A stretch of 64,000 nt of DNA from Sulfitobacter sp. S190 (lineage in GTDB: Bacteria; Pseudomonadota; Alphaproteobacteria; Rhodobacterales; Rhodobacteraceae): contig NZ_CP081120.1 in NCBI RefSeq assembly GCF_025141935.1, positions 2,852,001-2,916,000 on the forward strand, in the 5' to 3' direction. Made by a program: the position numbers and the translations under genes. This document shows positions 44,089 to 62,933 of the stretch, piece by piece. Each line of letters starts with the position of its first letter. Within the stretch, counting starts at the first letter, position 1. The notes under the pieces are model-generated. The model did no database searches. It saw only the letters and a program-made list of their open reading frames with translations, and had not been told where the DNA came from.

Positions 44089-44106
44089 ATCTGGTCCTTC
44101 GTTGGG

Positions 44107-45204: not shown

Positions 45205-45230
45205 GTCGCGGCTCTTTGTTTGAAATTAGG

Positions 45231-45248
45231 TTTGCAACCGGTTGCAAA
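45231..45248. promoter_or_regulatory. LacI-type operator between iolD and the Gfo/Idh-iolE unit
   Basis: TTTGCAACCGGTTGCAAA is a perfect 18-bp palindrome with the same core as at 40956. It is 27 nt before the minus-strand dehydrogenase start and 74 nt before iolD, so binding would shut both directions. Confidence 0.9.
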
Positions 45249-45321
45249 ATTAGTATCCTCAGATTCGAAATCGCGCAAGCGGCAATCGCCTTTTCGGCGT
45301 GTTTGAGGAATGACCGGGCAC

Positions 45322-47187: not shown

Positions 47188-48164
47188 TGCGCCGGGATGT
47201 CCTCGACGGGATCAAGGCCGGAAAATTCATCGTGGTTGGCCGCGTGGGGATGGATCTGTCGCCCAGTGACCGAAGCCGGACCGAACAGGCAACCGATATG
47301 TTCGTGGCGATGGGGGGCTCTTCGGCCAATATCGCGGCGGGGCTGGTCAAGCTGGGCCTGACAGCGGATCTTGCGACCTGCGTGAGCGACGATGCCGTGG
47401 GGCGCTATTGCCTTAACCAGCTTGATGCCTACGGAGTGGGCCGCGAATACGTGCGGACAATCCAGGGCGAAGAACGTACATCTCTTGCCATCTACGAAAC
47501 GCGGGTGGAGGATCACCAGTCGGTCATCTACCGCAACAATGCCGCGGATTTCCGGATGAACGCCGACGATATCGACAACATCGATTTCGACAGGTTCAGC
47601 GCCCTGATCACGGCAGGCACGGTATTTGCCGCCGAACCCAGCAGAACAGCGGCCTTTCGCGCGTTCGAGCGGGCCAAGGCCGCAGGAATCCCGATCATCT
47701 TCGACGTTGACTACCGCCCCTACAGCTGGCCCTCCCCTGCCGAGGCCGCCGATGTGCTGTCGCGCGCGGGTGCAATGGCGGATGTAATCGTCGCCAACGA
47801 TGAAGAATTCGGTTTCATGGCGGGCAGCTATGACAAGGGCCGCAGCAAGGCGAAATCGCTGGCAGAAGAGGGCGCTGCGATCGTGGTTTACAAGATGGGC
47901 CAGAACGGCGCAGTGACCTTTGCGGGCGGCGACACGATCGAAACCGGTATTTATCCCGTGGATGCCGTTAAGCCAACCGGCGCGGGCGACAGCTTCATGG
48001 CCGGTCTGATGGCCGCGCTGGCCGAAGACCGGTCCTTGCACGACGCCCTCCTGCGCGGCTCTGCCTGTGCATCGATTGTCGTCTCGCAGCCCGGCTGCGC
48101 GCCTGCCATGCCGACCACTGACCAGCTGGAAAGCTTCCTGCTCGATCATCCCGGACCCACCTGA
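47187..48164 (+). CDS. iolC: 5-dehydro-2-deoxygluconokinase IolC
   Basis: A 325-residue PfkB-family sugar kinase: FIVVGRVGMDLSP, the PfkB-1 signature VAMGGSSANIAAGLVKLG, and C-terminal DAVKPTGAGDSFMAGLM with the catalytic Asp and anion hole. It phosphorylates 5-dehydro-2-deoxy-D-gluconate (DKG). Its ATG overlaps the iolD stop by one base (TGATG). The frame is open upstream inside iolD, but this start matches the family. The DUF2090 extension found in some IolC fusion proteins is absent. Confidence 0.95.
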   Translation: MRRDVLDGIKAGKFIVVGRVGMDLSPSDRSRTEQATDMFVAMGGSSANIAAGLVKLGLTADLATCVSDDAVGRYCLNQLDAYGVGREYVRTIQGEERTSLAIYETRVEDHQSVIYRNNAADFRMNADDIDNIDFDRFSALITAGTVFAAEPSRTAAFRAFERAKAAGIPIIFDVDYRPYSWPSPAEAADVLSRAGAMADVIVANDEEFGFMAGSYDKGRSKAKSLAEEGAAIVVYKMGQNGAVTFAGGDTIETGIYPVDAVKPTGAGDSFMAGLMAALAEDRSLHDALLRGSACASIVVSQPGCAPAMPTTDQLESFLLDHPGPT

Positions 48165-48175
48165 AAGGACCGAAA

Positions 48176-49030
48176 ATGCACATCGCCCCACACGACAATA
48201 ACAATAAACCGATTGTGGATGCCGACGACCCGACGGTGCCCCTCAACTACTTCAACATCGTCAAATTGAAAGCGGGCGAAGCATTCGAGTATCAGGTGCC
48301 GGGATACGAGACCTGCATTGTGCCCGCCACCGGCACCGTCGATGTGTCCGTCGAAGGCGTGACCTTCGATGCGCTGGGGAACCGTGGCTCGGACGTCTGG
48401 GACGGGGAGCCCGAGGGCGTCTATGTACCGGTCGGCGCCAAAGTGACCATGGTTGCCACCCGCGATACCGAAACGTTCATTGCAGGTGCGAAATATGACA
48501 AGGTCCTCGATCCCTTCGATGTCCGTGTCGGCGGTATCGACAAGGTCCAATATGGATCGGACGACACAAAAACCCACCGCAAAATCAAACACATCCTTGG
48601 CCAGCAGCAGCACGACAAGGTGGGCCGCCTGCTGGTGTCGGAGCTCTTCACCGTCGGTCAGGGCGGCTGGTCCGGTTTTCCCGCGCACAAGCATGACACC
48701 GACCGCACCGATGATGCCGGCAACATTATCGAAACACGCCACGATGAAACCTACAATTTCCGGTTCCGCCCGAACCACGGGTCTGGCGTCCAGATACTGC
48801 AGCGTGAAGAAGGCAAACCCGGCGACGCCTATCAATTGATGGACGGCTCGACCATCATGATCGATACAGGCTACCACCCCTGCGCCGTGATGCCGGGGTA
48901 CGAGATGTACTATTTCACGATCCTGGGCGGCCTCAGCCAGCGCAGCCTGGTCCAGTTTTTCCAACCGACCCATGCCTATCAGGTCGAAACGATCCCCGGC
49001 ATCAAAGACATGGTCGCAAAGTTCAAATAA
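48176..49030 (+). CDS. iolB: 5-deoxy-glucuronate isomerase IolB
   Basis: A 284-residue bicupin isomerase of the KduI/IolB family. Features: YFNIVKLKAGEAFEYQVPGYE at the N-terminus, SGFPAHKHDTDR (metal His pair) and ETYNFRFRPNHG, then HPCAVMPGYEMYYFTILGG. It isomerises 5-deoxy-D-glucuronate to DKG. It starts 11 bp after iolC with AAAGGA in the gap. It is of normal family length. Confidence 0.95.
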   Translation: MHIAPHDNNNKPIVDADDPTVPLNYFNIVKLKAGEAFEYQVPGYETCIVPATGTVDVSVEGVTFDALGNRGSDVWDGEPEGVYVPVGAKVTMVATRDTETFIAGAKYDKVLDPFDVRVGGIDKVQYGSDDTKTHRKIKHILGQQQHDKVGRLLVSELFTVGQGGWSGFPAHKHDTDRTDDAGNIIETRHDETYNFRFRPNHGSGVQILQREEGKPGDAYQLMDGSTIMIDTGYHPCAVMPGYEMYYFTILGGLSQRSLVQFFQPTHAYQVETIPGIKDMVAKFK

Positions 49031-49094
49031 GACCTCTCCTTCATCTTGCCCGAAAACTCCCCCCGGAGGGTCGGCCAGCCCCAAGGACCATCCA

Positions 49095-49940
49095 ATGCCA
49101 CTTGCCACACTCGCCGAGGTGCTCACCCCCGCACTCTCCCGCAAATACGCGGTTGCGGGGCTCGTGACGCTGGGCTGGGAAGACATGCGCGCCTATGTTG
49201 CGGCGGCCCAATCGCTTGGCTGCCCCGTCATCCTGCAGGCCGGCCCCTCGTGTCGCGCCCACACCCCGCTTGCCGTATTGGGCGCGATGTTCCGGCACCT
49301 TGCGGCAGAGGCGGATGTGCCTGTGGTGGCGCATCTTGATCACGGCTACACCTTCGAGGACTGCCAGCGCGCGCTCGACGCGGGCTTTACCTCGCTGATG
49401 TACGATGGCTCGCGCAAACCGCTCGCACAGAATATCGAGGAGACCGCCCGGATCGCTCAGATGGCCCATGCCGCGGGCATCTCCTGTGAAGGGGAAATCG
49501 GGTTTGTCGGCTACGCAGACGGCGAAGACAGTGCGGGCACCGACCCCGCGCAGGCGGCCCGTTTTGCCCGCGAGACGGGCGTTGACGCGATGGCGATCTC
49601 GGTCGGGAACGTGCATCTGCAACAGGACAAGCAAGGCGGTCTCGACATCGATCGCATCCGCGCCATCGAAGCGGTGACGCAGGTGCCGCTGGTCATCCAC
49701 GGTGGATCAGGCGTGCCGGTCGCACAGCGCCATACGCTCGCGACCACCTCCAATATCTGCAAGTTCAACATCGGCACCGAATTGCGCATGGCCTTCGGCT
49801 CCGCCCTACGAGCCGCAGTCGCCGCTGATCCCGACAGGTTCGACAGGGTCGCGATCCTGCAGGACACCCACGCGCCGATGGTCGCCGCCGCCCGAACCGT
49901 TCTCGAAGCTTTCGAAGCCCCCGCAAAGGAAAACGCATGA
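49095..49940 (+). CDS. iolJ: Class II aldolase of the iol pathway (IolJ-like)
   Basis: A 281-residue class II fructose-bisphosphate-aldolase-family protein: VPVVAHLDHGYTFEDC (zinc His pair), SLMYDGSRKPLAQNIEET, SCEGEIGFVGY, LVIHGGSGVP and KFNIGTELRMAF. In the iol pathway IolJ splits 2-deoxy-5-keto-gluconate 6-phosphate into dihydroxyacetone phosphate and malonate semialdehyde. Position after iolB supports this, though a general FBA activity cannot be excluded. The downstream enzyme iolA (malonate/methylmalonate semialdehyde dehydrogenase) is not in the locus. AAGGA precedes the ATG. Confidence 0.85.
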   Translation: MPLATLAEVLTPALSRKYAVAGLVTLGWEDMRAYVAAAQSLGCPVILQAGPSCRAHTPLAVLGAMFRHLAAEADVPVVAHLDHGYTFEDCQRALDAGFTSLMYDGSRKPLAQNIEETARIAQMAHAAGISCEGEIGFVGYADGEDSAGTDPAQAARFARETGVDAMAISVGNVHLQQDKQGGLDIDRIRAIEAVTQVPLVIHGGSGVPVAQRHTLATTSNICKFNIGTELRMAFGSALRAAVAADPDRFDRVAILQDTHAPMVAAARTVLEAFEAPAKENA

Positions 49941-50920
49941 AACTCGCCATCCTCGGATGCGGCCGTATCGGTCAGGTCCACGCCCGCTCTCTCTCGCGGC
50001 TCGACGGGGCCCGTCTCGTTGCTGTGAGCGACGCAATTCCCGCCGCCGCAGAAAAACTCGCTACCGCCACAGGCGCCAAGTTAATGTCGTCCGACGCCAT
50101 CATCGCGGACGACATGATCGACGCTGTCATCATCTGCACGCCGACGGACACACACTATGATCTGATCCATGCAAGCGCGCGGGCCGGCAAAGCGATTTTC
50201 TGCGAAAAGCCGGTCGATATGTCGGCGGATCGCATCCGAAGCTGCATCGACGTCGTAGAAGAAAACAGTGTTGCCTTCCTGACCGCATTCAACCGTCGCT
50301 TTGATCCGAATTTCGCGGCCCTTCAGGCCCGCATCGCTGCCGGAGACATCGGCAGCGTCGAAATTGTCACGATCCTGTCGCGCGACCCCTCCCCGCCGCC
50401 GGTGTCCTACATCCAAAGCTCGGGTGGCATCTTTCGCGACATGATGATCCATGACTTCGACATGGCGCGTTTCCTGTTGGGCGAAGAACCCGTGCAGGTT
50501 TTTGCCGTGGGGGCCGCGCTGGTGGATCCGGCGATCGGTGCAGCAGGCGATGTGGACACGGCCGCGGTAACGCTCACAACCGCCAGCGGCCGCATCTGCC
50601 AGATTTCGAATTCGCGGCGCGCCAGCTACGGCTACGACCAGCGCGTGGAAGTCCACGGCGAAAAAGGCATGCTACGCGCGGAGAATGTGCTGGAAAATCA
50701 CGTGGAACTTGCAACTGCGCATGGCTTTGCCCGTGCGCCCACACTCAATTTCTTTCTGGAACGGTACGAAGCCGCCTATCTGCGCGAAATGGCCCATTTC
50801 GTGCAGGCCGTTCACGACGGCAAAGCACCCAGCCCGGGGATCGCGGACGGTCTGCGCGCACAGGTTCTGGCGGATGCAGCGGCAAAATCCTTGTCGACAG
50901 GACAACCGGTTCAGGTCTGA
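49937..50920 (+). CDS. iolG: myo-Inositol 2-dehydrogenase IolG
   Basis: A 327-residue NAD-dependent Gfo/Idh dehydrogenase: LAILGCGRIGQVHARSL, the catalytic Lys in FCEKPVDMSADR, and YIQSSGGIFRDMMIHDFDMARFLLG carrying the conserved Asp and His of inositol dehydrogenase (D-x3-H type). It oxidises myo-inositol to scyllo-inosose. Its ATG overlaps the aldolase stop (ATGA). It is the last gene of the iolD operon, and its final 10 bp overlap the convergent hypothetical gene at 50911. Confidence 0.93.
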   Translation: MKLAILGCGRIGQVHARSLSRLDGARLVAVSDAIPAAAEKLATATGAKLMSSDAIIADDMIDAVIICTPTDTHYDLIHASARAGKAIFCEKPVDMSADRIRSCIDVVEENSVAFLTAFNRRFDPNFAALQARIAAGDIGSVEIVTILSRDPSPPPVSYIQSSGGIFRDMMIHDFDMARFLLGEEPVQVFAVGAALVDPAIGAAGDVDTAAVTLTTASGRICQISNSRRASYGYDQRVEVHGEKGMLRAENVLENHVELATAHGFARAPTLNFFLERYEAAYLREMAHFVQAVHDGKAPSPGIADGLRAQVLADAAAKSLSTGQPVQV

Positions 50921-51399: not shown

Positions 51400-52479
51400 T
51401 CAAGCGATACCTGATTTGAGCGAGACGCCTGTTTCCAGATCGAACAGGTGCAGCATCGGTGCACGCGGGGTCAGACGGATTGTCGTCCCTGCCGCGACAT
51501 CAACCTGTCCCAGCTGGTGCAGGGTAAAGCGCGCGTGATCCGACAAGCTGCCGTAGACATAGCTTTCCGCCCCCAACTGCTCGACGGTATTTACCTTCAT
51601 CTCGATCGGGCCGTCCTCGGTTATGTCCATGTGGCTGGCGCGTACGCCCAGTTCGACCCGCTGTCCGGGCTTGGTGTCAAAGCCACCTTCGGGCAACGCC
51701 ACGACCGCACCGCTGTCGAGCGTGACCGCACGACCCTCCACGATCCCCTTCGCAAAATTCATTGCAGGAGAGCCGATGAAGCCCGCCACAAACCGGTTGC
51801 GCGGCGCGTTGAACAGATCGAGGGGCCGGCCGAATTGTTCAACAACCCCCTTGCGCAAGACCGCGATCTTGTCGGCCATCGTCATCGCTTCGACCTGATC
51901 ATGCGTGACATAGATCATGGTGTTTCCGAGGCGGGCATGCAGATCGGTGATTTCTGCGCGCATCGCCACGCGCAATTCGGCGTCAAGGTTCGACAGCGGT
52001 TCGTCGAACAGGAAAATCTTGGGCTCCCGCACCACGGCGCGGCCAATCGCGATGCGCTGCCTTTGCCCTCCGGACAAGGCGGCGGGGCGACGGTCCATCA
52101 GCTCTTCGATCTGCAACATCCGCGCGGCCTCATTGACGCGGCGGCTGATCTCGGCACGGTCCATCGACAGGTTTTCCAGGCCAAATGACAGGTTCTGGCG
52201 CACGGACATATGCGGATAAAGGGCATAGGACTGGAACACCATTGCCAGCCCCCGCTGTGCGGCAGGCACGCCATTGACCACATCGCCATCAATGCTGACC
52301 GTGCCGCCCGTGACGCTTTCCAAACCCGCGATCATCCGCAACAGGGTGGATTTGCCACAGCCGGACGGCCCCACGAAAACACAGAACTCGCCCGATGCGA
52401 TGGCCATGTCGATCCCGTGGATCACATCCACATCGCCGTAGGATTTTCGCAGCGCGTGCAGTTTCAGATCGGCCATCAT
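51400..52479 (-). CDS. MalK/UgpC-type ABC ATPase of the sulfoquinovose transporter
   Basis: A 359-residue CUT1 ATPase. Walker A is VFVGPSGCGKSTLLRM, signature ALSGGQRQRIAIGRAV, Walker B IFLFDEPLSNLDAELR, and the MalK-type C-terminal TOBE domain begins at about residue 235 (VEQFGRPLDLFNAPRN, VELGVRASHMDI). The ATG at 52479 overlaps the permease stop (ATGATGA). It is the seventh gene from the monooxygenase in one minus-strand run. Such ATPases may serve other CUT1 transporters as well. Confidence 0.92.
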   Translation of the reverse strand: MMADLKLHALRKSYGDVDVIHGIDMAIASGEFCVFVGPSGCGKSTLLRMIAGLESVTGGTVSIDGDVVNGVPAAQRGLAMVFQSYALYPHMSVRQNLSFGLENLSMDRAEISRRVNEAARMLQIEELMDRRPAALSGGQRQRIAIGRAVVREPKIFLFDEPLSNLDAELRVAMRAEITDLHARLGNTMIYVTHDQVEAMTMADKIAVLRKGVVEQFGRPLDLFNAPRNRFVAGFIGSPAMNFAKGIVEGRAVTLDSGAVVALPEGGFDTKPGQRVELGVRASHMDITEDGPIEMKVNTVEQLGAESYVYGSLSDHARFTLHQLGQVDVAAGTTIRLTPRAPMLHLFDLETGVSLKSGIA

Positions 52480-53912
52480 TTGCCCCCTGTGTTGGCGATG
52501 CCGGTGGTGATGTATTTCTGGAGAAACACGAAAACCAGCGTGGTCGGAATGAGGCTGACGACAGTCATGGCCAGCCGATAATGTTCCTGGCTCAGATGTT
52601 CGCCACGGAATTCCAGCAGGCACAACTGGATGGTATAGGCCTCTTTGGTGGTGGCGATGGCAACCATCGGCAGGATCAGATCGTTCCACCGCCAGATGAC
52701 AGACAGGATGCCCAGCGCCGCAAGCGCAGGCAGCGCAAGCGGCAGGATGATCCGCCAGTAGATTTTCCACTCAGAAGCCGCATCCATTCGGGCCGCTTCG
52801 ATCAATTCATCCGGAATCGTCAGCATGTACTGCCGCAGCAGGAAAACGCCCGCAGGTGTTGCAGCGCCCGGAATGATCACCCCCCAGATGGAGCCTGACA
52901 GACCTGTCGCATTGATCGCCTTGAACACACCGACCAGCGTGATGGTGGGCGGCACCATCAGCGTGGCAAGGATCGCGATGAAGAAAAATGCCTGCCCCCT
53001 GAAGACGTATTTCGACAAGGCAAATGCTGCCATTGAGTTTATGAGCAAAGTGAGAAGTGTCGCGATCACAGTGACCAGAACCGAGTTTGTGAAACACGAC
53101 GCGAAATCGACGTTTACGCCGAACGCACGGCCCGTGAGCGGTTCGAAGTAGTTGCCCCAGGATGCATCCACCACCCGCTCTGCGCTGGCCCCCTCGGTGG
53201 GCACGCGCACGACTTCATCGCTTGAATTGTCGACACGGCGGGCCGGAAAAATCTCGCGGTTGGGATCAAAGGACGGGGCGGCCCATTCGGTCATCTCTCC
53301 GGTCTCGGGATCGGGCGCGGTGACAAGGATTTGGGTCACCAGCCGGTTCGGCTCGAATGGATCGATGCCCAGAAACTCGGACAGGAGCCGGCGGTCTTCG
53401 GGGTCAAGCGGGGCCAACACCCCTGCCACATCCCGCTCGGCGCGGGCTGCCGCGTTCATCGACGGATACCGCAGCAACCAGTCGGGCAGGTTTTCACGGG
53501 CAATCACATCCCGCACCAGTGCAGGCACCTGTCCCAGATGTGAGCGCATCGCGTAAAATCCGCGCCCCGTCAGCGTTGCGAGGTATCCTTCGACGTCTTG
53601 CGCGGCGCGTTCTTCGGCACTCAGATCATCCCAGTTGAGCACCCAGTCGGGCTGATCGGGCATGATGAAAATCTCGCGCCCGTCGGGCCCGTAGACCGTG
53701 GCACGCGCCACGCGCACGAAGTCCGATGGCAGCAATGCCAGATCCTGCTTTTCAAGCTGGAACGACGACTTGACCGAATTCAGCGCAATCCAGCTTACCG
53801 GCAGGAAGATGATGAGAAATCCGAAAATCAGATAGGCGTAAGTCACCCAGTCGACCCAGCTGAGCCGCCCGCGCCCGTGGGTACGCGTCAGGAAATCGCG
53901 CACGGCGGTCAT
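52476..53912 (-). CDS. MalG-type sugar ABC permease with large periplasmic insertion
   Basis: A 478-residue permease, far longer than the usual 280. TM1 is residues 21-45 (YAYLIFGFLIIFLPVSWIAL). Residues of about 65-250 form a charged insertion (for example DDLSAEERAAQDVEGYLATL, APLDPEDRRLLSEFLGIDPF) between LLPSDF and the normal SWGNYFEP. The typical MalG helices follow with the EAA motif EAARMDAASEWKIYWRIILP. The insert should face the periplasm and may bind the substrate-binding protein or the sugar. The gene overlaps the partner permease stop (ATGA). It is part of the sulfoquinovose operon. Confidence 0.88.
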   Translation of the reverse strand: MTAVRDFLTRTHGRGRLSWVDWVTYAYLIFGFLIIFLPVSWIALNSVKSSFQLEKQDLALLPSDFVRVARATVYGPDGREIFIMPDQPDWVLNWDDLSAEERAAQDVEGYLATLTGRGFYAMRSHLGQVPALVRDVIARENLPDWLLRYPSMNAAARAERDVAGVLAPLDPEDRRLLSEFLGIDPFEPNRLVTQILVTAPDPETGEMTEWAAPSFDPNREIFPARRVDNSSDEVVRVPTEGASAERVVDASWGNYFEPLTGRAFGVNVDFASCFTNSVLVTVIATLLTLLINSMAAFALSKYVFRGQAFFFIAILATLMVPPTITLVGVFKAINATGLSGSIWGVIIPGAATPAGVFLLRQYMLTIPDELIEAARMDAASEWKIYWRIILPLALPALAALGILSVIWRWNDLILPMVAIATTKEAYTIQLCLLEFRGEHLSQEHYRLAMTVVSLIPTTLVFVFLQKYITTGIANTGGK

Positions 53913-54973
53913 TGCTTGCCCTCTCGCGACGATAGCCACACCTGCAACAGTGACAGGATCACTAGAACGACCGCGACGATCAGCGACGCCATCGCCGCCA
54001 CGCCCAGCCCGTTGGCCGTCGGCTGCCCACGCAGCCCCGAGGTTTCAAAGATATAGCCAACCAGCGATATCCACCGCACGTTCATGGCGTAGAGCTCCTC
54101 GAAGGCCTGAAACGCTTTGACAAGGCTGAGGACGGTCACAACCAGCAGCGTCGGCATCAGCAAGGGGATGGTGATGCGGCGCAGCATGCGGAATTCGGAG
54201 GTGCCGTCCATGCGCGCAGCCTCGTACAGGTCTTTGGGGATCGCCTGCAGCCCCGCGAGCAGGATCAGCATGTAGAACCCCAGATGCGCCCATGTATAGA
54301 CGAAGACCGACCAGAACATGGTCCAGCTGGGATCTGTCAGCCACTGGATCGGCTCATCGATCCAGCCCCAGTTCATCAGGGTCAGGCTCAGCACGCCCTG
54401 ACGCTTCAGGATCAGCGTCCAGAGGAAGCCGACAACGACGGGCGACAACATCACGGGATAGAAAAAGATGGACCGCCAGAACCCGCGCCCGACAATGTCC
54501 CGGTTGAGCGCCAAAGCGGTGCACAGCGCGAAAAAGATCATGATCGGCACCTGAAAGATGACGAACACGAACGTGTCGGCCACGGCGGCCAGAAACTTGT
54601 CGTCCTCGCGGTTTTCGAGGCCGGTATCGATCGACGTCTCCGCCAGCAATCGGTCCAGATTGTCGGCCCCGGCCCATTCGCGCGATTCAAAGTTGATCGA
54701 CTGCCCTTCGGTCACCGAAAAGCCGATGTTGATGAAGAAGGGTGCAAAGGTGAACAGGCCAAAGACGAGCATGTTCGGGATGAGAAAGAGATAGGGCAGT
54801 CCGGTGGCCCCTGCCACCCGCTGTACCATCTCGATAGGCCAGCCAAGTGCCGACATCAGCTGCCCACCGATACCCCCCGTGGGGCGTACAAGAACCCAGC
54901 CGATCGCAAGATAAATCAGGACGGCGTAGGGCCAGCCGGAGGTGCCGAAGGCATTGTAAAGTGCATCAAGCAT
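53909..54973 (-). CDS. MalF-type sugar ABC permease
   Basis: A 354-residue CUT1 permease with an extra N-terminal hydrophobic segment (PYAVLIYLAIGWVLV) before the usual six helices, which start at YLFLIPNMLVFGLFTFAPFF. The EAA loop is EAARMDGTSEFRMLRRITIP. A periplasmic loop of about 60 residues follows TM2 (EGQSINFESREWAGADNLDR). It lies 28 bp after the binding protein and overlaps the MalG-type permease gene by 4 bp. It forms the heterodimeric channel of the proposed sulfoquinovose transporter. Confidence 0.9.
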   Translation of the reverse strand: MLDALYNAFGTSGWPYAVLIYLAIGWVLVRPTGGIGGQLMSALGWPIEMVQRVAGATGLPYLFLIPNMLVFGLFTFAPFFINIGFSVTEGQSINFESREWAGADNLDRLLAETSIDTGLENREDDKFLAAVADTFVFVIFQVPIMIFFALCTALALNRDIVGRGFWRSIFFYPVMLSPVVVGFLWTLILKRQGVLSLTLMNWGWIDEPIQWLTDPSWTMFWSVFVYTWAHLGFYMLILLAGLQAIPKDLYEAARMDGTSEFRMLRRITIPLLMPTLLVVTVLSLVKAFQAFEELYAMNVRWISLVGYIFETSGLRGQPTANGLGVAAMASLIVAVVLVILSLLQVWLSSREGKQ

Positions 54974-55001
54974 ACGCGCCTCCGGCTGGCCCAGATTTTG
55001 G

Positions 55002-56267
55002 TTATTCGGCGATCTGTGCCGCGACGTCCGCGTCGATGGCCGTCAGCGCGTCATCCAGCGAAATCTCACCGGTGATGGCTTGGGTCATGTAGTCGGGGAC
55101 GACGCCATAGATGACGAAGTTCTTGGCATAGCCCTGGAAGGTGAATGCCTGTGGCGTGGTTTCCGCGGCCTTGGACGCGTTGCCCGCAAAGACCTGCAGT
55201 GCCTGCGCGACGGCAGGAGACGCATCACCGTAATCTACACCGCTGGCTTGCAGGCCCTGGTGCGCAGGGATGTTGCGCGTCTGGGACGCAAAGGCCGCTG
55301 CCTGCTCGTCTGCCGCAAGGTAGTCGATGAACTGTGCCGCCGCTTCTGGCACATCGGTGCTTTCGAAGGCGACGATTGCCGCACCGCCGGGCATTGCGCC
55401 GCAGCCGCCGGGACCGCACGGAACGGGAACCGCTTTCCAGTCGAAATCGGTGATGTCCTTGGCGTAGCTGTTGATCATCCAGCTGCCCGACATGTGCATC
55501 GCCACGTCACCCGACAGGAACAGCGGTGCCGCGTTGCGGTAGCTGGTGCCGGACCCCGCAGGCCAGCCTTCGGCGGGCATCAGGCCGGATTCGTGCCATT
55601 TGACGAAGGTCTCGGCGAAATTGCGGAAACCTTCGTCCACGAGGATCGGATCGCCGTTATCGTCAAAGAATTTGGCGCCATAGGCAAATGCCGGACCCGC
55701 CATGCGGTGTGCCGTGCGGTCCATCGCCAGCCCCGCAGTGAGGCCCAACGCCTCTTTGACCTCCATCAGGGCCGCGGCCCATTCATCCCATGTGGCGCCG
55801 TCACCGGGCATGTCGACGCCCGCATCTTCGAACATCGATACGTTCACGTAGGGGCCGGTCACGGTCAGCTGTGTCATCCAGCCATAAACGCCATCGTCTT
55901 CGCCGCCGGGTTTGCGGAACCACGGCAGGGTCGCGCCATAGTTTTCTTCCCAAGCGGCGGTGTCGACGTAGTCGGACAGGTCCAGATAGTACTGGTTCAG
56001 GCCACCGAGGTTCGTGACACGCGCCACGTCAGGGGCGGAGCCGGTCTGCAACTGGTTTTCCAGCTGGTCGCGTACAACATCATAGCCGACGACATCCATC
56101 TTGACCGTGTGGCCCGTGGCGTCGGTGAAACCGTCGAGCATGCCCGCGATCACGTCACATTCGTTGCTGTCCTGATAGCACAGGAAATTCACCTCGTCCG
56201 CGTGCGCTGCAACCGCGCCACCCAGAATGGTCGCGGACAGGGCCGCTGCTTTTACCGTGTATTTCAT
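55002..56267 (-). CDS. smoF: Sugar-binding protein of the sulfoquinovose transporter (SmoF-like)
   Basis: A 421-residue periplasmic binding protein of the CUT1 (MalE-like, SBP_bac_1) family with signal peptide (AALSATILGGAVAAHA-DE). Conserved points: VNFLCYQDSNECDVIAGMLD, QLQTGSAPDVARV, GDVAMHMSGSWM. GGGAGGA precedes the ATG at 56267. In Agrobacterium, SmoF binds sulfoquinovosyl glycerol; here the assignment comes from the operon, with monooxygenase, reductases and permeases. It lies between the catabolic genes and the permease genes. Confidence 0.85.
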   Translation of the reverse strand: MKYTVKAAALSATILGGAVAAHADEVNFLCYQDSNECDVIAGMLDGFTDATGHTVKMDVVGYDVVRDQLENQLQTGSAPDVARVTNLGGLNQYYLDLSDYVDTAAWEENYGATLPWFRKPGGEDDGVYGWMTQLTVTGPYVNVSMFEDAGVDMPGDGATWDEWAAALMEVKEALGLTAGLAMDRTAHRMAGPAFAYGAKFFDDNGDPILVDEGFRNFAETFVKWHESGLMPAEGWPAGSGTSYRNAAPLFLSGDVAMHMSGSWMINSYAKDITDFDWKAVPVPCGPGGCGAMPGGAAIVAFESTDVPEAAAQFIDYLAADEQAAAFASQTRNIPAHQGLQASGVDYGDASPAVAQALQVFAGNASKAAETTPQAFTFQGYAKNFVIYGVVPDYMTQAITGEISLDDALTAIDADVAAQIAE

Positions 56268-56310
56268 GGTTTCCTCCCTTGGAAATACGTCTGTGTTGGT
56301 CGTGTCCGCC

Positions 56311-56817
56311 TTATTGATCGTCGGCGGTTGAAAGCGTGCCGAAGGCGCCGTTGAAAAACACCATCGGACTGGCATCACGCGTGGTCAGATTAACCACGCG
56401 GGAAATGAAAATGATATGATCGCCCGCTTCATACGTGGCGTAAGGTTCGCACTCGAACCGCGTCAGGCATCCCTCGACGAGCGGCGGGCCGCCGGGGTTG
56501 TCGGCCAGTGTCAGGCCCCCGAACCCAAAGGCGTCCTTGGTGAAACCCATGCAATCGTTACGCTGCGCATCAGCAAGGATGTGGATCGCGGTACGCTCGG
56601 CCGCCTCAAATGCCGCGCGGCGCTTCGAGGATTTGTCGATCGACCACAGAACAAGCGGCGGCTTCAGCGAAACGCTGGCAAAACTGTTGACCAGTATGCC
56701 CATATCGCCTTTGTCGGACTGGGTCGTCACCAGGGTCACACCGGTGGTGAATTTGCCAAGGCTGTCGCGGAAGCTGCGGGTATCAAAGGGCACAATCGGG
56801 CTCTGCATGGTCATCAT
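56311..56817 (-). CDS. smoA: FMN reductase for the sulfoquinovose monooxygenase (SmoA-like)
   Basis: A 168-residue flavin reductase of the HpaC/short-chain FMN-binding split-barrel fold: FRDSLGKFTTGVTLVTT at the N-terminus, ILVNSFASVSLKPPLVLWSI (flavin site), GDHIIFISRVVNL (GDHxIF, typical) near the C-terminus. It supplies reduced FMN to the two-component monooxygenase. Its ATG overlaps the aldo/keto reductase stop (ATGATGA). The binding-protein gene follows after 43 bp. The role is inferred from the operon. Confidence 0.88.
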   Translation of the reverse strand: MMTMQSPIVPFDTRSFRDSLGKFTTGVTLVTTQSDKGDMGILVNSFASVSLKPPLVLWSIDKSSKRRAAFEAAERTAIHILADAQRNDCMGFTKDAFGFGGLTLADNPGGPPLVEGCLTRFECEPYATYEAGDHIIFISRVVNLTTRDASPMVFFNGAFGTLSTADDQ

Positions 56818-57722
56818 GGCACCTCTTGCCCATTCGCCGCTTCGTAAAGCGCAAACCACGTCTGGCGGTCCATCCGCACTTTCAGCGCGTCGGACAGCTT
56901 GCCGATACGATCGAGATTATTCGTGCCCATGACCGGTACGATCCCGGCAGGGTGCGCCAACAGCCACGCCACCGCAACGGCATCGGCGCCAACGCCTGCC
57001 TCGGCGCCAACGTCCGCCAATGTGTCGTGCAGCCCCTTGTTGGCCGCATCAAACAGCGAGCCCCCGCCCAAGGGGGACCATGCCATCGCCGCAATGCCAC
57101 GTTCCTGCAAATAGGCGAGATCGCCGTTCGTAAATGCCGCATTGGCCGTGAGTGACATTTCGATCTGGTTGGTGACCAGTTTGTTCTTCATCGCCGATTG
57201 CAACAGGGTCCAGTCGTGCAGCTTGAAGTTCGACACACCAACGCTGCGCACTTTGCCCGAAGCGATGACATCGTCCAGCGCCGCACCGGTTTCGGATTGG
57301 TCCATGAAAGGATCGGGCCGGTGAATGAGCAGCGTATCGATCGTGTCGATATTCATGAGACGCAGCGAATGATCGACAGACGCCATGATATGCGCGCGGC
57401 TGGTATCGTAGTGTTTGACGCGCGCATCTGCATAGCGGCCCATCGGTGCGACGATATCGCATTTGGTCACGATCTCGATCTGGTCGCGCAATCCGGGCGC
57501 AGCCTTCAGCGTCTGGCCCAGAATTTCCTCGGCCTCGTAGCCGCCATAGATGTCGGCCTGATCCATGGTGGTGATGCCCTGTGCCAGACAGCCTTCGATC
57601 TTGGCTTGCACATGGGCCTGCGATGTATCGCTGTCATCGCCCAGCCGCCACATGCCATAGACGATCCGGCTGAAGGACAGATCATCGGCAAGCGTCACGC
57701 GCTCCATTTTGGTGTCAGACAT
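56814..57722 (-). CDS. smoB: Aldo/keto reductase, probable 6-oxo-glucose reductase (SmoB-like)
   Basis: A 302-residue aldo/keto reductase. Catalytic tetrad positions are visible: Asp in TTMDQADIYGGYEAEEIL with Tyr close behind, Lys in IVTKCDIV, and His in LLIHRPDPFM. NADPH-site region: VPVMGTNNLDRIGKLSDAL. In the sulfo-SMO pathway SmoB reduces 6-oxo-glucose, the product of desulfurisation, to glucose. Its start overlaps the stop of the monooxygenase gene (TAATG). Without the neighbours it would be called only an YdhF-like aldo/keto reductase. Confidence 0.87.
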   Translation of the reverse strand: MSDTKMERVTLADDLSFSRIVYGMWRLGDDSDTSQAHVQAKIEGCLAQGITTMDQADIYGGYEAEEILGQTLKAAPGLRDQIEIVTKCDIVAPMGRYADARVKHYDTSRAHIMASVDHSLRLMNIDTIDTLLIHRPDPFMDQSETGAALDDVIASGKVRSVGVSNFKLHDWTLLQSAMKNKLVTNQIEMSLTANAAFTNGDLAYLQERGIAAMAWSPLGGGSLFDAANKGLHDTLADVGAEAGVGADAVAVAWLLAHPAGIVPVMGTNNLDRIGKLSDALKVRMDRQTWFALYEAANGQEVP

Positions 57723-58879
57723 TAGCGGCGTTCTCCGGTTCCGAGAGGTGTTGCAGGTGTGCTGGCCGGGACGCGGCCATATGCGTGGGGCAATGAACAT
57801 GTCTTGAGCTCTGGCAGCACCAGTTTGCCGACATAATCACATTCGTCCAGATGCGGATACCCCGAGAAGATAAACGACCGCATCCCCATTTTCTTGTAAT
57901 TTTCAATTTCGCTCAGCACCTGATCGGCAGAGCCGACCAATGCCGCCCCACAGCCCGACCGCGCCCGCCCCACGCCGGTCCACAGGTGCGGCTCGATAAA
58001 GCCGTCCATATCCGCCAGTTCACGGTTGCGGGCCTGTTTCGACACGCCCAGCGATCCCGCGTCCAGCGCGCGGTTGCGGATCGCATCGCCCTGCCCGTCG
58101 TCCAGCTTGGACACCAGTTCCCGGGCGTATTCCCGCGCCTCGGCTTCGGTATCGCGCACGATCATGTGCACCCGCAGCCCGTAGTCCAGCGTGCGGCCGT
58201 ATTCCTCGGCCTTGGCCGCCACGGTCTTCATGCGCCCGGCCAGCTCATCCTTGGTTTCGGGCCACATCAAATAGACGTCGCAATGCTCGGCGCACAGGTC
58301 GACGGCATCGGGGCTGTAGCCGCCGAAATACATCAGCGGGCCGCCGTTTTGCTGGTACGGCTTGACCGGATCGGTGGTCAGACCCTGAAAATTGTAAATA
58401 TCGCCCTCGAAATTGATTTCATCGCGCGTCCAGGCCTGCCGCAAGATCTCGACCACCTCGCGCGACCGGCGGTAGCGGTAGGGTGACGGTTCCTTCTGCC
58501 CCGGAAAATCGGAGGAAATGATGTTGATCGTCAGCCGCCCCTCCAGCATGTGATCCAGCGTTGCAATGGTGCGCGCCAGCATGATGGGTTGCATTTCGCC
58601 ACAGCGCACGGCCGCCAGCAGGTTGATCTTGTCCGTGATCGGCGCACAACCCGCCACGAAAGACAGCGTATCCTGCCCCACCTGATAGGACGAGGGACAC
58701 AGGATGTTGCGAAACCCGTTTGCCTCCGACCGCTTCACGATCTCGGAGCAATGATCCCAGCTTGACCGCAGCGCACCATCGGGCACACCGAGATACTGGT
58801 AATCATCCGAACACAGCGCGGAAAACCACGAAACTTCAGCGGCATCCAGATCGGCAGAGGTGATGGGAACGATGCTCAT
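57722..58879 (-). CDS. smoC: FMN-dependent sulfoquinovose monooxygenase (SmoC-like, LLM class)
   Basis: A 385-residue LLM-class (luciferase-like, SsuD-related) flavin monooxygenase. Family features: VGQDTLSFVAGCAPITDKINLL, VRCGEMQPIMLARTIATLDHML, LTINIISSDFPGQKEPSPYRYR, PVKPYQQNGGPLMYFGGYSPDA, RVHMIVRDTEAEAREYARE. SsuD breaks alkanesulfonates to aldehyde and sulfite using FMNH2 and O2; SmoC does so on sulfoquinovose, giving 6-oxo-glucose and sulfite. It is the first gene of the operon with the reductases and transporter. Substrate is assigned by context; alkanesulfonate use is the main alternative. Confidence 0.85.
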   Translation of the reverse strand: MSIVPITSADLDAAEVSWFSALCSDDYQYLGVPDGALRSSWDHCSEIVKRSEANGFRNILCPSSYQVGQDTLSFVAGCAPITDKINLLAAVRCGEMQPIMLARTIATLDHMLEGRLTINIISSDFPGQKEPSPYRYRRSREVVEILRQAWTRDEINFEGDIYNFQGLTTDPVKPYQQNGGPLMYFGGYSPDAVDLCAEHCDVYLMWPETKDELAGRMKTVAAKAEEYGRTLDYGLRVHMIVRDTEAEAREYARELVSKLDDGQGDAIRNRALDAGSLGVSKQARNRELADMDGFIEPHLWTGVGRARSGCGAALVGSADQVLSEIENYKKMGMRSFIFSGYPHLDECDYVGKLVLPELKTCSLPHAYGRVPASTPATPLGTGERR

Positions 58880-58922
58880 GGGACTACTTTCGTGCTTGAT
58901 TGGAACAGGTTAATCATGCAAT

Positions 58923-58936
58923 TTGACCTAAATCAA
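58923..58936. promoter_or_regulatory. Palindromic box in the sulfoquinovose divergent promoter region
   Basis: TTGACCTAAATCAA fits TTGAY-N4-RTCAA completely, and a related half-site (GGATCAA) follows at 58941-58947. It lies in the 76-bp space between the monooxygenase (start 58879) and GntR gene (start 58956). It could be an operator for the GntR regulator or a true FNR/FixK site; sequence cannot decide. Confidence 0.45.
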
Positions 58937-58955
58937 TAGTGGATCAATTTTTCCG

Positions 58956-59669
58956 ATGCACCCCGCCCCGCCTGCCCGCGACAAGCTGCCGGCCTACATC
59001 CAGATCGCCGAAGTCGTCGCCCGCAACATTGCGTCCGGCCGGCTGCTGGACGGGGACAAATTGCCCACCGAAAGGGCGATGGCCGAAGAATATCAAGTGG
59101 CGGTGGGCACCCTGCGCAAAGCGCTGGATGTGCTGGTCGAACAGGGGCATGTCGAACGCAGGCAGGGGTCGGGCAACTATATCCGCCATGCCGACGGTGC
59201 GCGCTCCGTCTATGCGCTGCTGCGGCTCGAACTGCGCGGCGGGGGCGGATTGCCCACGGCTGAAATACTGGCAATCGACCACGTTCGCAAACCCGCAGGT
59301 GCGCCGCAATTCGGATCTTCTGCCATGGCGCACAGGTTCAGGCGTCTGAGGTTTCTCGATGGCAAGGCCGCCGCGCTGGAAGAGATATTCATCGACGCGG
59401 ATCGCAGTGGGGCGATAGATGCGCAGGCGGTCTCCGAATCGCTCTACTACTTTTATCAACACGATCTGGGAATTCTGGTGAGCCGCGCCACAGACACCAT
59501 CGGATTGGGCCATGTCCCCGACTGGACCTTGCACCGTTTTGGCCCCGACGCACAGTCACCGGTGCCCTTTGTCGAGCGCGTGGCCTACGACCAGAACACA
59601 CAGCCCTTCGAATACTCCCGCACGTGGATCGACGCAGACATCGCCGCTTACGTATCCCGACTGAAATAG
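58956..59669 (+). CDS. GntR/HutC-family regulator with UTRA domain (SmoD-like)
   Basis: A 237-residue regulator: N-terminal winged HTH (PAYIQIAEVVARNIASGRLL, LPTERAMAEEYQVAVGTLRKAL, GHVERRQGSGNYI) and a C-terminal UTRA ligand domain (AHRFRRLRFLDGKAAALEEI, PFVERVAYDQNTQPFEYSRT). It is divergent from the catabolic and transport operon and upstream of the Gfo/Idh gene. It probably represses both when sulfoquinovose or a derivative is absent. The ligand is inferred. Confidence 0.9.
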   Translation: MHPAPPARDKLPAYIQIAEVVARNIASGRLLDGDKLPTERAMAEEYQVAVGTLRKALDVLVEQGHVERRQGSGNYIRHADGARSVYALLRLELRGGGGLPTAEILAIDHVRKPAGAPQFGSSAMAHRFRRLRFLDGKAAALEEIFIDADRSGAIDAQAVSESLYYFYQHDLGILVSRATDTIGLGHVPDWTLHRFGPDAQSPVPFVERVAYDQNTQPFEYSRTWIDADIAAYVSRLK

Positions 59670-59680
59670 GAACGACCCAA

Positions 59681-60781
59681 ATGACCACCCACTACGGCAT
59701 GATCGGCTGCGGCATGATGGGCCAGGAGCACATCAAGAATATCAACCTGCTGCCCGACACCGCCGTCACCGCTATCTTCGAGCCCGACGCCGGTATGGCC
59801 GCGATTGCCCGCGACCTCGCACCGGGCGCCATTTTCGTGGACAGCCTCGATGCGTTGGTGCGTTTCACCGGGCTCGACGCGCTTGTCATCACCAGCCCCA
59901 ATTTCTGTCACGCCGAACAGCTTGAGCAGATCGCAGCCGCGGTCAGCTTGCCGATCCTGTGCGAAAAGCCGCTCTATACCGACGCTGCCGATACCGCCCG
60001 GATCGCGCGTTTGCGCGATACCTACGGGGCGCCCATCTGGGTGGCGATGGAATACCGGTACATGCCGCCGATTGCGGCGCTGATCAAACAGGCGGCGCTG
60101 GAAACCGGCGGGATCAAGATGTTGACGATCCGCGAACACCGCTTCCCGTTTCTGGAAAAAGTCGGCGACTGGAACCGTTTCAACAGCAAGACAGGCGGCA
60201 CGCTCGTCGAAAAGTGCTGCCATTTCTTTGACCTGATGCGCCTGATCGTGCAGTCGGATCCCGTACGGGTGATGGCCTCCGGCGGGCAGGACGTAAATCA
60301 CCTCGATGAAACCTACGACGGGCACACCCCTGACATTCTCGACAACGCCTACGTGATTGTTGACTTTGCCAACGGTGCGCGGGCGATGCTCGAACTGTCG
60401 ATGTTCGCCGAAGGGTCGGAGTATCAGGAAGTGGTGCACGCGGTCGGGCCGCACGGGAAGATCGAAAGCTACGTGCCGGGGCCGACGCGGTTCTGGTCGC
60501 AAGAACGCGGTCTGCCACCAACGCCACACTTGCTGATCAGCCCGCGCACGGGCGAACCGCCACGCCGCGTTGAAATTCCGGTTGATCCGCAGTTGCTGGA
60601 GGCGGGCGACCACAACGGCTCCACCTTCTATCAGCACGAGCGGTTCTTGCAGGTCGTTCGAGGCCGCGGAGAGGTAGAGGTCACGCTGGAGGACGGCGCG
60701 TGGGCCGTGGCGATCGGCATGGCCGCCCAGCAAAGTCTGAGCACCCATGAAGCGGTGAAAATCTCACCGCCGCTTCGGTAA
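59681..60781 (+). CDS. Gfo/Idh/MocA-fold protein, candidate NAD+-dependent sulfoquinovosidase
   Basis: A 366-residue Gfo/Idh/MocA-type protein: Rossmann loop YGMIGCGMMGQEHI, LCEKPLYTDAADTARI, VAMEYRYMPPIAALI, GGTLVEKCCHFFDLMRL, and a C-terminal HNGSTFYQHERFLQVVRG. It follows the GntR regulator by 11 bp in the sulfoquinovose locus, which has no GH31 sulfoquinovosidase. NAD+-dependent glycosidases with this fold (GH109, and GH188 for sulfoquinovosides) are known, so it may release sulfoquinovose from sulfoquinovosyl glycerol. An ordinary sugar dehydrogenase is the alternative. The fold is certain; the glycosidase role is inference. Confidence 0.7.
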   Translation: MTTHYGMIGCGMMGQEHIKNINLLPDTAVTAIFEPDAGMAAIARDLAPGAIFVDSLDALVRFTGLDALVITSPNFCHAEQLEQIAAAVSLPILCEKPLYTDAADTARIARLRDTYGAPIWVAMEYRYMPPIAALIKQAALETGGIKMLTIREHRFPFLEKVGDWNRFNSKTGGTLVEKCCHFFDLMRLIVQSDPVRVMASGGQDVNHLDETYDGHTPDILDNAYVIVDFANGARAMLELSMFAEGSEYQEVVHAVGPHGKIESYVPGPTRFWSQERGLPPTPHLLISPRTGEPPRRVEIPVDPQLLEAGDHNGSTFYQHERFLQVVRGRGEVEVTLEDGAWAVAIGMAAQQSLSTHEAVKISPPLR

Positions 60782-60869: not shown

Positions 60870-60977
60870 ATGGCTTGGACGAAACCCATCATCCGCGAAA
60901 TCGAATGCGGCATGGAAATCAACATGTACGGCCCTGACGGTGACCGCGAAGACGACGGCGGCGGCGTCCTGTTCTGA
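60870..60977 (+). CDS. pqqA: PQQ precursor peptide PqqA
   Basis: A 35-residue peptide that begins MAWTKPIIREIECGMEINMY. Glu16 and Tyr20 (E-x3-Y) are the residues joined to make pyrroloquinoline quinone. GGGAGGA lies just upstream of the ATG. The gene starts pqqABCDE and is too short for usual ORF filters. The region 60782-60869 before it holds no other gene and must contain the promoter. Confidence 0.95.
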   Translation: MAWTKPIIREIECGMEINMYGPDGDREDDGGGVLF

Positions 60978-61000
60978 AAACCTGGCGCACGGAGGGTCCG

Positions 61001-61897
61001 ATGAGTTTCCGTGCGCAAGTGCTTGGGGCGGCTGCCGGTGGTGGTCTGCCACAATGGAACTGCGGTTGCATGAATTGCAACCTTGCCCGCGCCGGTGACA
61101 TCCCGGCGCAGACGCAATCGTCTGTGGCCTTTACAGGCAACGGGCGGGACTGGGCGATCCTCAACGCCTCCCCCGATATCCGCGAACAAATGGCACGCAC
61201 GCCCGCGCTGCATCCCACCGGCCCACGCAGTTTGCCGCTGCATTCGGTGTTGGTGACAAACGGCGACATCGACCATGTTGCCGGATTGCTGATCTTGCGC
61301 GAACAGCAGCCCTTCACTCTTTTTGCGACGGGTGAAATCCACCAGGTTCTGGGGGATAACCCGATCTTCAACGCGCTCAACCACGATCTGGTCAAGCGCA
61401 GCGTCATCACGCTGGACACGCCGTTCACGCTTGCTCCCGACCTCACCGCGACCCTCTTTGCGGTGCCGGGAAAAGTGCCGTTGTATCTGGAGGGCAAAGA
61501 GGTCCAGACCGATCTTGAGGGCGAACAGACCGTTGGGGTCCACCTGCAAACAAACGGTAAATCCGCCTTTTACATTCCCGGTTGCGCCCTGATGAAGCCC
61601 GATCTGGCGGACCGCCTGTCAGGGGCCGACGCCGTGTTCTTCGATGGCACGCTCTGGCGAGACGACGAAATGATCACCGAAGGGCTAAGCCAGAAAACGG
61701 GGCAGCGGATGGGCCATATGTCGATGTCCGGGCCGGGCGGATCGATGGCCGCGTTCGAGACGATCGATGTCGCGCGCAAGGTTTTTGTCCATATGAACAA
61801 CACCAACCCCGTTTTGCGACCATCTTCGGACGAGCGTCAGCACGCACAGGACGCGGGCTGGACCATCGCGACCGACGGACTGGAACTGGAGATCTGA
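61001..61897 (+). CDS. pqqB: PQQ biosynthesis protein PqqB
   Basis: A 298-residue MBL-fold protein with the PqqB features LGAAAGGGLPQWNCGCMNC (zinc-binding cysteine pair) and NGDIDHVAGLL, and a late HMSMSGPGGSM. PqqB is thought to hydroxylate the crosslinked dipeptide or prepare the PqqC substrate. GGAGGG lies 4 nt before the ATG. Its stop overlaps the pqqC start by one base (TGATG). Confidence 0.95.
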   Translation: MSFRAQVLGAAAGGGLPQWNCGCMNCNLARAGDIPAQTQSSVAFTGNGRDWAILNASPDIREQMARTPALHPTGPRSLPLHSVLVTNGDIDHVAGLLILREQQPFTLFATGEIHQVLGDNPIFNALNHDLVKRSVITLDTPFTLAPDLTATLFAVPGKVPLYLEGKEVQTDLEGEQTVGVHLQTNGKSAFYIPGCALMKPDLADRLSGADAVFFDGTLWRDDEMITEGLSQKTGQRMGHMSMSGPGGSMAAFETIDVARKVFVHMNNTNPVLRPSSDERQHAQDAGWTIATDGLELEI

Positions 61898-62652
61898 TGC
61901 CCCCTGCCCCCGCATCCCGCGCCGATTTCGAAGCCCGCCTGCGCCAGATTGGAGCCGAACGCTATCACGACAAACACCCTTTCCACCACTTGCTGCACTC
62001 GGGTGGCTGCACGCCCGCGCAGGTGCAGGCATGGGTCATAAACCGCTTCTATTATCAGGCCAGCATTCCGATGAAAGACGCGGCCTTCATGAGCCGCGTG
62101 GACGATCCCGCGCTGCGCCGCGCGTGGCGGTCGCGCATCGAGGACCACGACGGCACCGATACCAACGAAGGTGGCATCGCCCGATGGCTGAGACTGGCGG
62201 ATGCCGTGGGTCTGGACCGCGATTACGTCGCCAGCAAAGCGGGCCTGTTGCCCGCGACACGGTTTGCCGTCGATGCCTATGTCCGCTTTGTGCGCGACAA
62301 GTCCCTGTTGGAAGCGGTCGCGGCCTCCCTGACTGAGCTTTTTGCCCCCAAGATACACGCCGCGCGGATAGAGGGGCTGCTGGCCAACTACGACTTCGCC
62401 GACGACAGCAGCCTGAGTTATTTCCAGAACCGCCTGAAAGAAGCGCCAAAGGATGTGGCGTTCGGTCTGAAATGGGTGCTGGACCACGCCGATACGGCCG
62501 AAAAACAGGAAGCAGCCGCGCAGGCGCTTATCTTCAAAACCGACGTTCTCTGGGCCCAGCTGGACGCCTTGCACGCCGCTTACGTCACGCCCGCGGCCAT
62601 TCCACCCGGCGCGTGGCAGCCGGGCACGCATCTCATCCGGGACGTGGCGTGA
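61897..62652 (+). CDS. pqqC: Pyrroloquinoline-quinone synthase PqqC
   Basis: A 251-residue all-helical cofactorless oxidase that performs the last step, ring closure and eight-electron oxidation to PQQ. Conserved regions: YHDKHPFHHLLHSGGCTPAQ, VINRFYYQASIPMKDAAF and RIEDHDGTDTNEGGIARW. It overlaps pqqB and pqqD by one base at each end (TGATG), so translation is coupled. Length is normal for the family. Confidence 0.96.
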   Translation: MPPAPASRADFEARLRQIGAERYHDKHPFHHLLHSGGCTPAQVQAWVINRFYYQASIPMKDAAFMSRVDDPALRRAWRSRIEDHDGTDTNEGGIARWLRLADAVGLDRDYVASKAGLLPATRFAVDAYVRFVRDKSLLEAVAASLTELFAPKIHAARIEGLLANYDFADDSSLSYFQNRLKEAPKDVAFGLKWVLDHADTAEKQEAAAQALIFKTDVLWAQLDALHAAYVTPAAIPPGAWQPGTHLIRDVA

Positions 62653-62933
62653 TGGCGATCGACGCCGAAGCGGTGCCGGTCATCCCGCGGGGCGTGCGGC
62701 TACACCACGACACGGTGCGCGGCATCTGGGTCCTGCTGGCCCCCGAACGGACCATCACGCTCGACCCGATCGGCCACGCGATCCTGACGCAAATCGACGG
62801 CACCAGCAGCCTGCGCAAGATCGTGTCGCAACTGGCCGCGCAATACGACGCAACGCCGGAGCAGATATCCGGTGACGTCGGTGATTTCGTTCGCGGGCTG
62901 GCCGACCGGCGCATTCTGGATCTGACGTTATGA
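62652..62933 (+). CDS. pqqD: PqqA-binding chaperone PqqD
   Basis: A 93-residue RiPP recognition element protein: IPRGVRLHHDTVRGIWVLLA (beta strands and loop), PERTITLDPIGHAILTQI, then helices with SLRKIVSQLAAQYD. PqqD binds the PqqA peptide and presents it to the radical SAM enzyme PqqE. It overlaps pqqC by one base and pqqE by 4 bp (ATGATGA). Confidence 0.95.
   Translation: MAIDAEAVPVIPRGVRLHHDTVRGIWVLLAPERTITLDPIGHAILTQIDGTSSLRKIVSQLAAQYDATPEQISGDVGDFVRGLADRRILDLTL

Follow-up and report, generated by a model that had tools for sequence, protein, structure and literature searches.

Sulfoquinovose (SQ), the sugar of plant and algal sulfolipid, ranks among the largest reservoirs of organic sulfur; little is known about the bacteria that import it and about the form in which they do so. 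The closest described systems are the sulfoquinovose monooxygenase (sulfo-SMO) clusters of marine Roseobacter-clade bacteria, in which, according to the available text of Kaur 2023 (PMC10755693), a glycoside hydrolase of family 188 (GH188) is near-universal; enzymes of this family are described there as cleaving both alpha and beta SQ glycosides. In the accessible part of PMC13372026, genomes encoding both the monooxygenase SmoC and the aldo/keto reductase SmoB are scored as sulfo-SMO-positive. A literature search for Sulfitobacter together with sulfoquinovose found no paper. Here we analyse a 64,000-nucleotide stretch of Sulfitobacter sp. S190 (contig NZ_CP081120.1, positions 2,852,001 to 2,916,000), hereafter the window, to which all coordinates refer unless another locus is named. 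Judged by sequence comparison, positions 51400 to 60781 hold a sulfo-SMO locus of the Rhodobacterales GH188 type already in print; the assignment is well supported, and the locus is very probably a complete sulfolytic pair of divergent operons, explained best by the pathway proposed below. The peculiarity of the locus is its ATP-binding cassette (ABC) importer. This ABC family rather likely constitutes an undescribed class of importer for SQ or SQ glycosides in Rhodobacteraceae, interchangeable with tripartite ATP-independent periplasmic (TRAP) transporters and placed under the GntR/UTRA repressor of an SQ regulon, the conserved operator of which is also found at importer copies away from the smo genes.

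Monooxygenase, reductases and proposed pathway

The gene smoC (57722..58879, minus strand) encodes a protein of 385 aa, predicted to be an SQ monooxygenase of the luciferase-like monooxygenase (LLM) class that depends on reduced flavin mononucleotide (FMNH2). It shares 289 of 384 residues (75.3%) with the solved chain 7olf and 293 of 384 (76.3%) with 7oh2, and 118 of 352 (33.5%) with E. coli SsuD. We take 7olf and 7oh2 to be SmoC of Agrobacterium and of a Rhizobium; their deposited names are methanesulfonate sulfonatase and alkanesulfonate monooxygenase. The adjoining smoB (56814..57722, minus strand) encodes an aldo/keto reductase which would reduce 6-dehydroglucose to glucose. Its best solved match, 7bbz, deposited as an aryl-alcohol dehydrogenase and presumably SmoB, scores 444 bits, ahead of a putative aldo/keto reductase (214 bits) and YdhF (212 bits) as the next distinct molecules. 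7olf, 7oh2 and 7bbz are by far the best solved relatives of the two enzymes. In a maximum-likelihood tree of 103 rows, which leaves out the genome's two other LLM paralogues, a branch with 100/100 support places SsuD and MsuD on one side and the window SmoC with both solved chains on the other; the two paralogues align with SmoC over part of their length only, at 27-30% identity.

A preliminary description of this DNA, made from the sequence alone, had proposed a sulfo-SMO locus and had suggested a tree of the monooxygenase with SsuD and SmoC, in which a position inside the SsuD clade would speak against the proposal. With the chains taken to be SmoC and SmoB as top solved relatives and the monooxygenase outside that clade, the proposal stands; it survives its own test because SsuD and MsuD fall across the 100/100 branch from the window. 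All genes it named are present on the strands given. The gene-to-gene overlap that it reported along the minus-strand run holds for smoC/smoB (TAATG), smoB/flavin reductase, permease/permease and permease/ATPase, each by 1-4 nt, and fails for flavin reductase/binding protein and binding protein/permease, which are separated by 43 and 28 nt. Gene starts given here are the likely ones, judged from sequence.

The third gene of the run (56311..56817, minus strand) sits in the expected smoA place. It encodes a flavin reductase according to PF01613 (118.8 bits), a putative SmoA judged by its position, and would supply FMNH2. In the pathway that we propose, the CUT1 ABC importer would bring in SQ or an SQ glycoside, and the GH188 enzyme SqgA, described below, would free SQ via transient NAD+ oxidation at C3, as shown in print for its relatives. 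By orthology, SmoC with FMNH2 from the flavin reductase would split the C-S bond to yield sulfite and 6-dehydroglucose, which SmoB would convert to glucose. Glucose enters central metabolism, and sulfite may be oxidised by a SoxC-type sulfite dehydrogenase (583.5 bits, cut-off 420) encoded in a sox cluster elsewhere in the genome. In this cluster (G000:C1:892000-901000, L104), soxA, soxB and soxC-type genes score above their cut-offs, and two proteins match cytochrome c below the threshold. The genome further encodes five TauE-family proteins, none of them in the window.

A predicted GH188 sulfoquinovosidase

On the plus strand, sqgA (59681..60781) encodes a protein of 366 aa of Gfo/Idh/MocA type, predicted to be a GH188 NAD+-dependent sulfoquinovosidase. 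It matches 8zn9 with 527.5 bits, FlSqgA (8qc2) with 372.9 bits and ArSqgA (8qc3) with 359.2 bits, and is identical to 8qc3 at 174 of 359 positions (48.5%). All nine positions checked, in the ArSqgA numbering given in the available text of Kaur 2023 (PMC10755693), are kept, i.e. K107, Y136, E164, R166, L170, K172, E189, H193 and H321, including the sulfonate-binding residues R166, L170 and K172 in the alignment to 8qc3. The same nine are kept in 73/73 relatives with a long enough match. The Glu163 named in that text does not fit, as 8qc3 has Val at this position and the window protein has Arg; the neighbouring Glu164 is shared by the two.

No GH31 protein (PF01055) scores above the cut-off anywhere in the genome, the two weaker matches reaching 20.3 and 20.2 bits against 23.5. 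The preliminary description was therefore right, for the window and for the whole genome at the family cut-off, that no GH31 sulfoquinovosidase is present. That a sulfoquinovosidase is missing altogether is not supported, since by sequence SqgA supplies one; it lies within the very range that the description covered and went unnamed there. On the similarity to GH188 and the conserved residues, we reject the absence of any sulfoquinovosidase.

Gene content of related loci

For comparison we used 80 SmoC loci, the best 80 of at least 581 confirmed stretches, some of which are truncated where a contig ends. At a distance of up to 6 kb from smoC, a GntR regulator was found in 78 loci, GH188 in 76, an aldo/keto reductase in 68 and a flavin reductase in 58; a YihQ homologue was found within this distance in 0/80. 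The usual layout is gntR-sqgA divergent from smoC-smoB, as in the window. The preliminary description had singled out the gene set for departing from that of Agrobacterium, which cannot be upheld in view of this common layout and of the published GH188 type. The core gene set is not new, because GH188 in Roseobacter sulfo-SMO clusters is already in print (available text of PMC10755693). Regarding importers, a TRAP receptor with at least 60% identity to that of Ruegeria sp. TM1040 is the commonest within 6 kb of smoC (33/80 loci). The importer type of the window, labelled ABC type A, occurs there in 6/80 loci (L001, L002, L004, L005, L007, L057).

SmoC itself (E 1e-120 or better) was found in 10/385 genomes drawn from the class and in 164/394 of the family. 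Among the matches listed, those closest to the window SmoC (up to 92%) come from Flavimaricola and from records of uncultured Rhodobacteraceae. Several loci depart from the usual arrangement. Those of Mesorhizobium or Aminobacter type (L019, L021, L022, L028, L030, L037, L039, L047, L048) show no aldo/keto reductase match in the stretch fetched; in L021, the sole one of them checked with Pfam, a flavin reductase gene is followed by genes for a LacI-type regulator, GH88 and KduI. In the Rhodobacterales SmoC locus L052 (11035-14668), ccmF and ccmH directly follow the aldo/keto reductase gene, where others have flavin reductase and importer. In L092 (G009), from another Alphaproteobacterium, a SmoC relative of about 54% identity has one in-frame TGA within the matched frame.

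Probable operator and regulon

The 76-bp intergenic region between smoC and the gene of a GntR/UTRA (HutC-type) regulator (58956..59669, plus strand; PF00392 and PF07702) contains a probable operator, TTGATCCACTATTGATTTA (58929..58947, minus strand), recognised by its fit to the motif TTGATNNACNATTGATNTA. The motif recurs with 0-1 mismatch in 86 of 93 gntR-smoC intergenic regions, the window included, from which the pattern itself was drawn and a few of which are near-copies; of the rest, three have 2 mismatches, one has 3 and three have 5-6. At up to 2 mismatches, it was found in none of 1860 shuffled copies of these regions. The regulator probably represses both operons from 58929-58947 until an SQ-related ligand releases it. 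A simple sigma-70 scan gave no promoter above chance.

Two further searches played no part in drawing the pattern, one of the genome and one of the sequences upstream of binding-protein genes. In the 3.97 Mb genome, the site at 58929-58947 is the only exact one, and one other site has 2 mismatches. The upstream search covered the 30 best-scoring binding-protein loci of 64 matches listed, 6 in a smo operon and 24 outside, with relatedness not controlled. Among the 24 copies outside, nine have a site with up to 3 mismatches upstream, compared with 5/900 shuffles, 0/45 downstream stretches and 11/2614 tiles, a background of about 0.5%. One of the nine sites is exact, in G818, where the smo genes lie on another contig. 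All nine genomes with the site have SmoC, which lies on another contig or about 470 kb off in seven of them and 3.7 kb away in L137 (G770), its place in L130 (G446) not being listed; three of the 24 come from genomes without SmoC, and none of these three has the site. The six loci within smo operons (L112, which is the window, to L116, and L140) have no site just upstream, as expected because the gene lies inside the operon. Since the site precedes importer copies outside smo operons in genomes that all have SmoC, the importer appears to be tied to the SQ regulon. We found no GntR operator for sulfoquinovose genes in the literature searched, where the papers that came up concern E. coli regulators, the E. 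coli SQ gene cassette and lactose, and multidrug efflux pumps, and Roseobacter importers may be described in primary papers outside that search; measured against the papers searched, the regulon signature is new here.

The ABC importer and its possible ligand

The four importer genes follow the flavin reductase gene on the minus strand. They encode a CUT1 solute-binding protein of 421 aa (55002..56267), the putative binder of SQ or an SQ glycoside, two permeases of 354 aa (53909..54973) and 478 aa (52476..53912), both recognised by PF00528, and an ATPase of UgpC/MalK type (51400..52479; NF008653 470.3 bits, cut-off 432). In the second permease, hydropathy predicts a stretch of about 230 residues that separates the first membrane span from the second. 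Its length is nearly the same in ABC copies outside smo operons (478 aa in L147, 479 aa in L148), as against 347 aa in the diverged versions of L142 and L143.

The preliminary description had likened the binding protein to SmoF. That the protein is a SmoF was not confirmed, as none of the entries taken to be SmoF was found among 32 sequence matches in the Protein Data Bank up to E = 10, their presence in the library not having been checked. A fold predicted from a 40-row alignment reached a predicted local distance difference test (pLDDT) score of 88 (41 with an earlier alignment of seven sequences), and the 50 structural matches listed for it are generic CUT1 binding proteins only, SmoF being absent from these 50. 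Across the 394 family genomes, 42 of the 49 with a binding protein of at least 44% identity have SmoC, compared with 164 overall, and in L142 and L143 the smo gene run itself includes an importer version of 46-47% identity. A search of the genome of the window for the TRAP receptor of Ruegeria sp. TM1040 gave no close homologue (best 27%).

Several observations weigh against an SQ importer or against the sulfo-SMO assignment as a whole. The site is lacking, at up to 3 mismatches, upstream of 15 of the 24 copies outside the operon, including L118 (71%), which is the same copy as L147. In L147 (2122-8591), an importer copy with 70-77% identity stands outside any smo locus after a sulfatase gene, without a smo site at up to 3 mismatches. 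One source names close relatives of the binding protein alpha-1,4-digalacturonate binders, and in L021 and L044 a version of 37-39% identity has GH88 genes in its vicinity. In one of the eight genomes whose binding-protein copy reaches at least 68% (G578), no SmoC was found, and at 34-42% identity the co-occurrence with SmoC is not significant (8/14). As to the enzymes, the flavin reductase is poorly conserved (35-67% identity where found); in 22 of the 80 loci, some of which are cut by contig ends, none was found within 6 kb of smoC. The ligand of the importer may thus not be SQ, given the digalacturonate naming, the GH88 neighbours in L021 and L044 and the 71% copy beside a sulfatase gene in L147.

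In the most probable of the alternatives, the enzymes are sulfo-SMO and the ABC system imports another acidic glycan, e.g. a uronide oligosaccharide, co-regulated because it co-occurs with sulfolipid in decaying algae, while SQ enters otherwise. We regard this as unlikely: the naming of the binding protein as an alpha-1,4-digalacturonate solute-binding protein, the diverged relatives near GH88 and KduI genes (L021) and the close copy beside a sulfatase gene are in line with it, but the ABC genes occupy the place in the smo operon that TRAP takes in relatives, the site of the smoC-gntR region precedes copies outside the operon, and a close TRAP-receptor homologue was not found in this genome. 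Less probable still is a substrate other than sulfolipid-derived SQ-glycerol, be it a different 6-sulfo sugar or another SQ glycoside such as an SQ-containing glycan. The breadth of GH188 enzymes towards alpha and beta SQ glycosides in the available text of PMC10755693 would accommodate it, as would the many listed structural matches of the importer that bind oligosaccharides; the sulfonate triad of SqgA and SmoC match SQ enzymes, however, and nothing recognised in the locus handles other sugars. An SsuD-type sulfur-scavenging operon, desulfonating alkanesulfonates under sulfate limitation, is very improbable and was rejected: fold and cofactor are shared and TIGR03565 (alkanesulfonate monooxygenase) is the best NCBIfam match of SmoC, but its 234.7 bits do not come near the equivalog cut-off of 518.2, the 100/100 branch separates SsuD and MsuD from the window SmoC, and the sugar-type ABC system, the aldo/keto reductase and the GH188 glycosidase would have no role.

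A second set of ABC genes, labelled ABC_B, lies 7-9 kb from smoC in 12 of the 80 loci, with binding proteins of 36-39% identity. We did not take these as SQ importers, as GH88 genes are nearby in both loci checked (L021, L044) and no site was found upstream in any of the 12 (best 5 mismatches). In 28 of the 80 loci neither importer label was assigned, in part because of contig ends.

Origin of the locus and neighbouring genes

Within the genus, SmoC was found in 6 of 62 genomes, including that of the window. A branch with 98/98 support parts the other five from the window SmoC; rows of other genera may share their side, as they do in an earlier tree. All three of the five relatives that were opened carry TRAP, a search of 30 other genomes (18 of the same genus) did not find the binding protein of the window, and on the SmoC tree ABC type A and TRAP must have replaced one another at least three times. 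Inheritance within the genus is not favoured, because of the 98/98 branch and the TRAP importers of these three relatives, and in the simplest reading the locus was probably acquired horizontally together with its importer. Composition gives no sign of transfer, the G+C content being 0.607 in the locus and 0.600 in the remaining window.

Upstream of the locus (43198-50920) lie genes of inositol-catabolism type, for a protein with a sugar-isomerase fold and for Gfo/Idh/MocA, thiamine pyrophosphate enzyme, KduI/IolB and class II aldolase proteins, the last four at 45310-50920. Directly downstream of sqgA, pyrroloquinoline quinone synthesis genes occupy 60870-62933, i.e. pqqA (recognised by eye, 60870-60977), pqqB and genes of the PqqC and PqqD families.

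Comparison with known systems

A regulator-operator signature of this kind would allow the SQ regulon to be recognised in genome sequences also when the importer is encoded apart from the enzymes, and it turns the ligand of the importer (free SQ, SQ-glycerol or larger SQ glycosides) into a directly testable question. With the smo locus of Agrobacterium tumefaciens, as reviews present it, the window shares the enzymes SmoC and SmoB, a flavin reductase and an ABC importer that includes a binding protein; it differs by GH188 in place of the GH31 sulfoquinovosidase and by a binding protein for which no sequence match to SmoF was detected. According to the accessible text on the sulfo-ASMO enzymes SquD and SquF of Novosphingobium aromaticivorans (PMC12890257, PMC9594981), their chemistry is the same as that proposed here. 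Unlike the window, a Novosphingobium relative (strain PP1Y, L099) combines a 52% SmoC homologue and a 37% aldo/keto reductase with a 43% homologue of the GH31 enzyme YihQ. The Roseobacter-clade clusters, as far as described in the available text of Kaur 2023 (PMC10755693), agree with the window in their sulfo-SMO enzymes, in the NAD+-dependent GH188 sulfoquinovosidase and in lacking GH31; the importer found most often beside smoC in the fetched loci is TRAP, whereas the window carries the rarer ABC type A.

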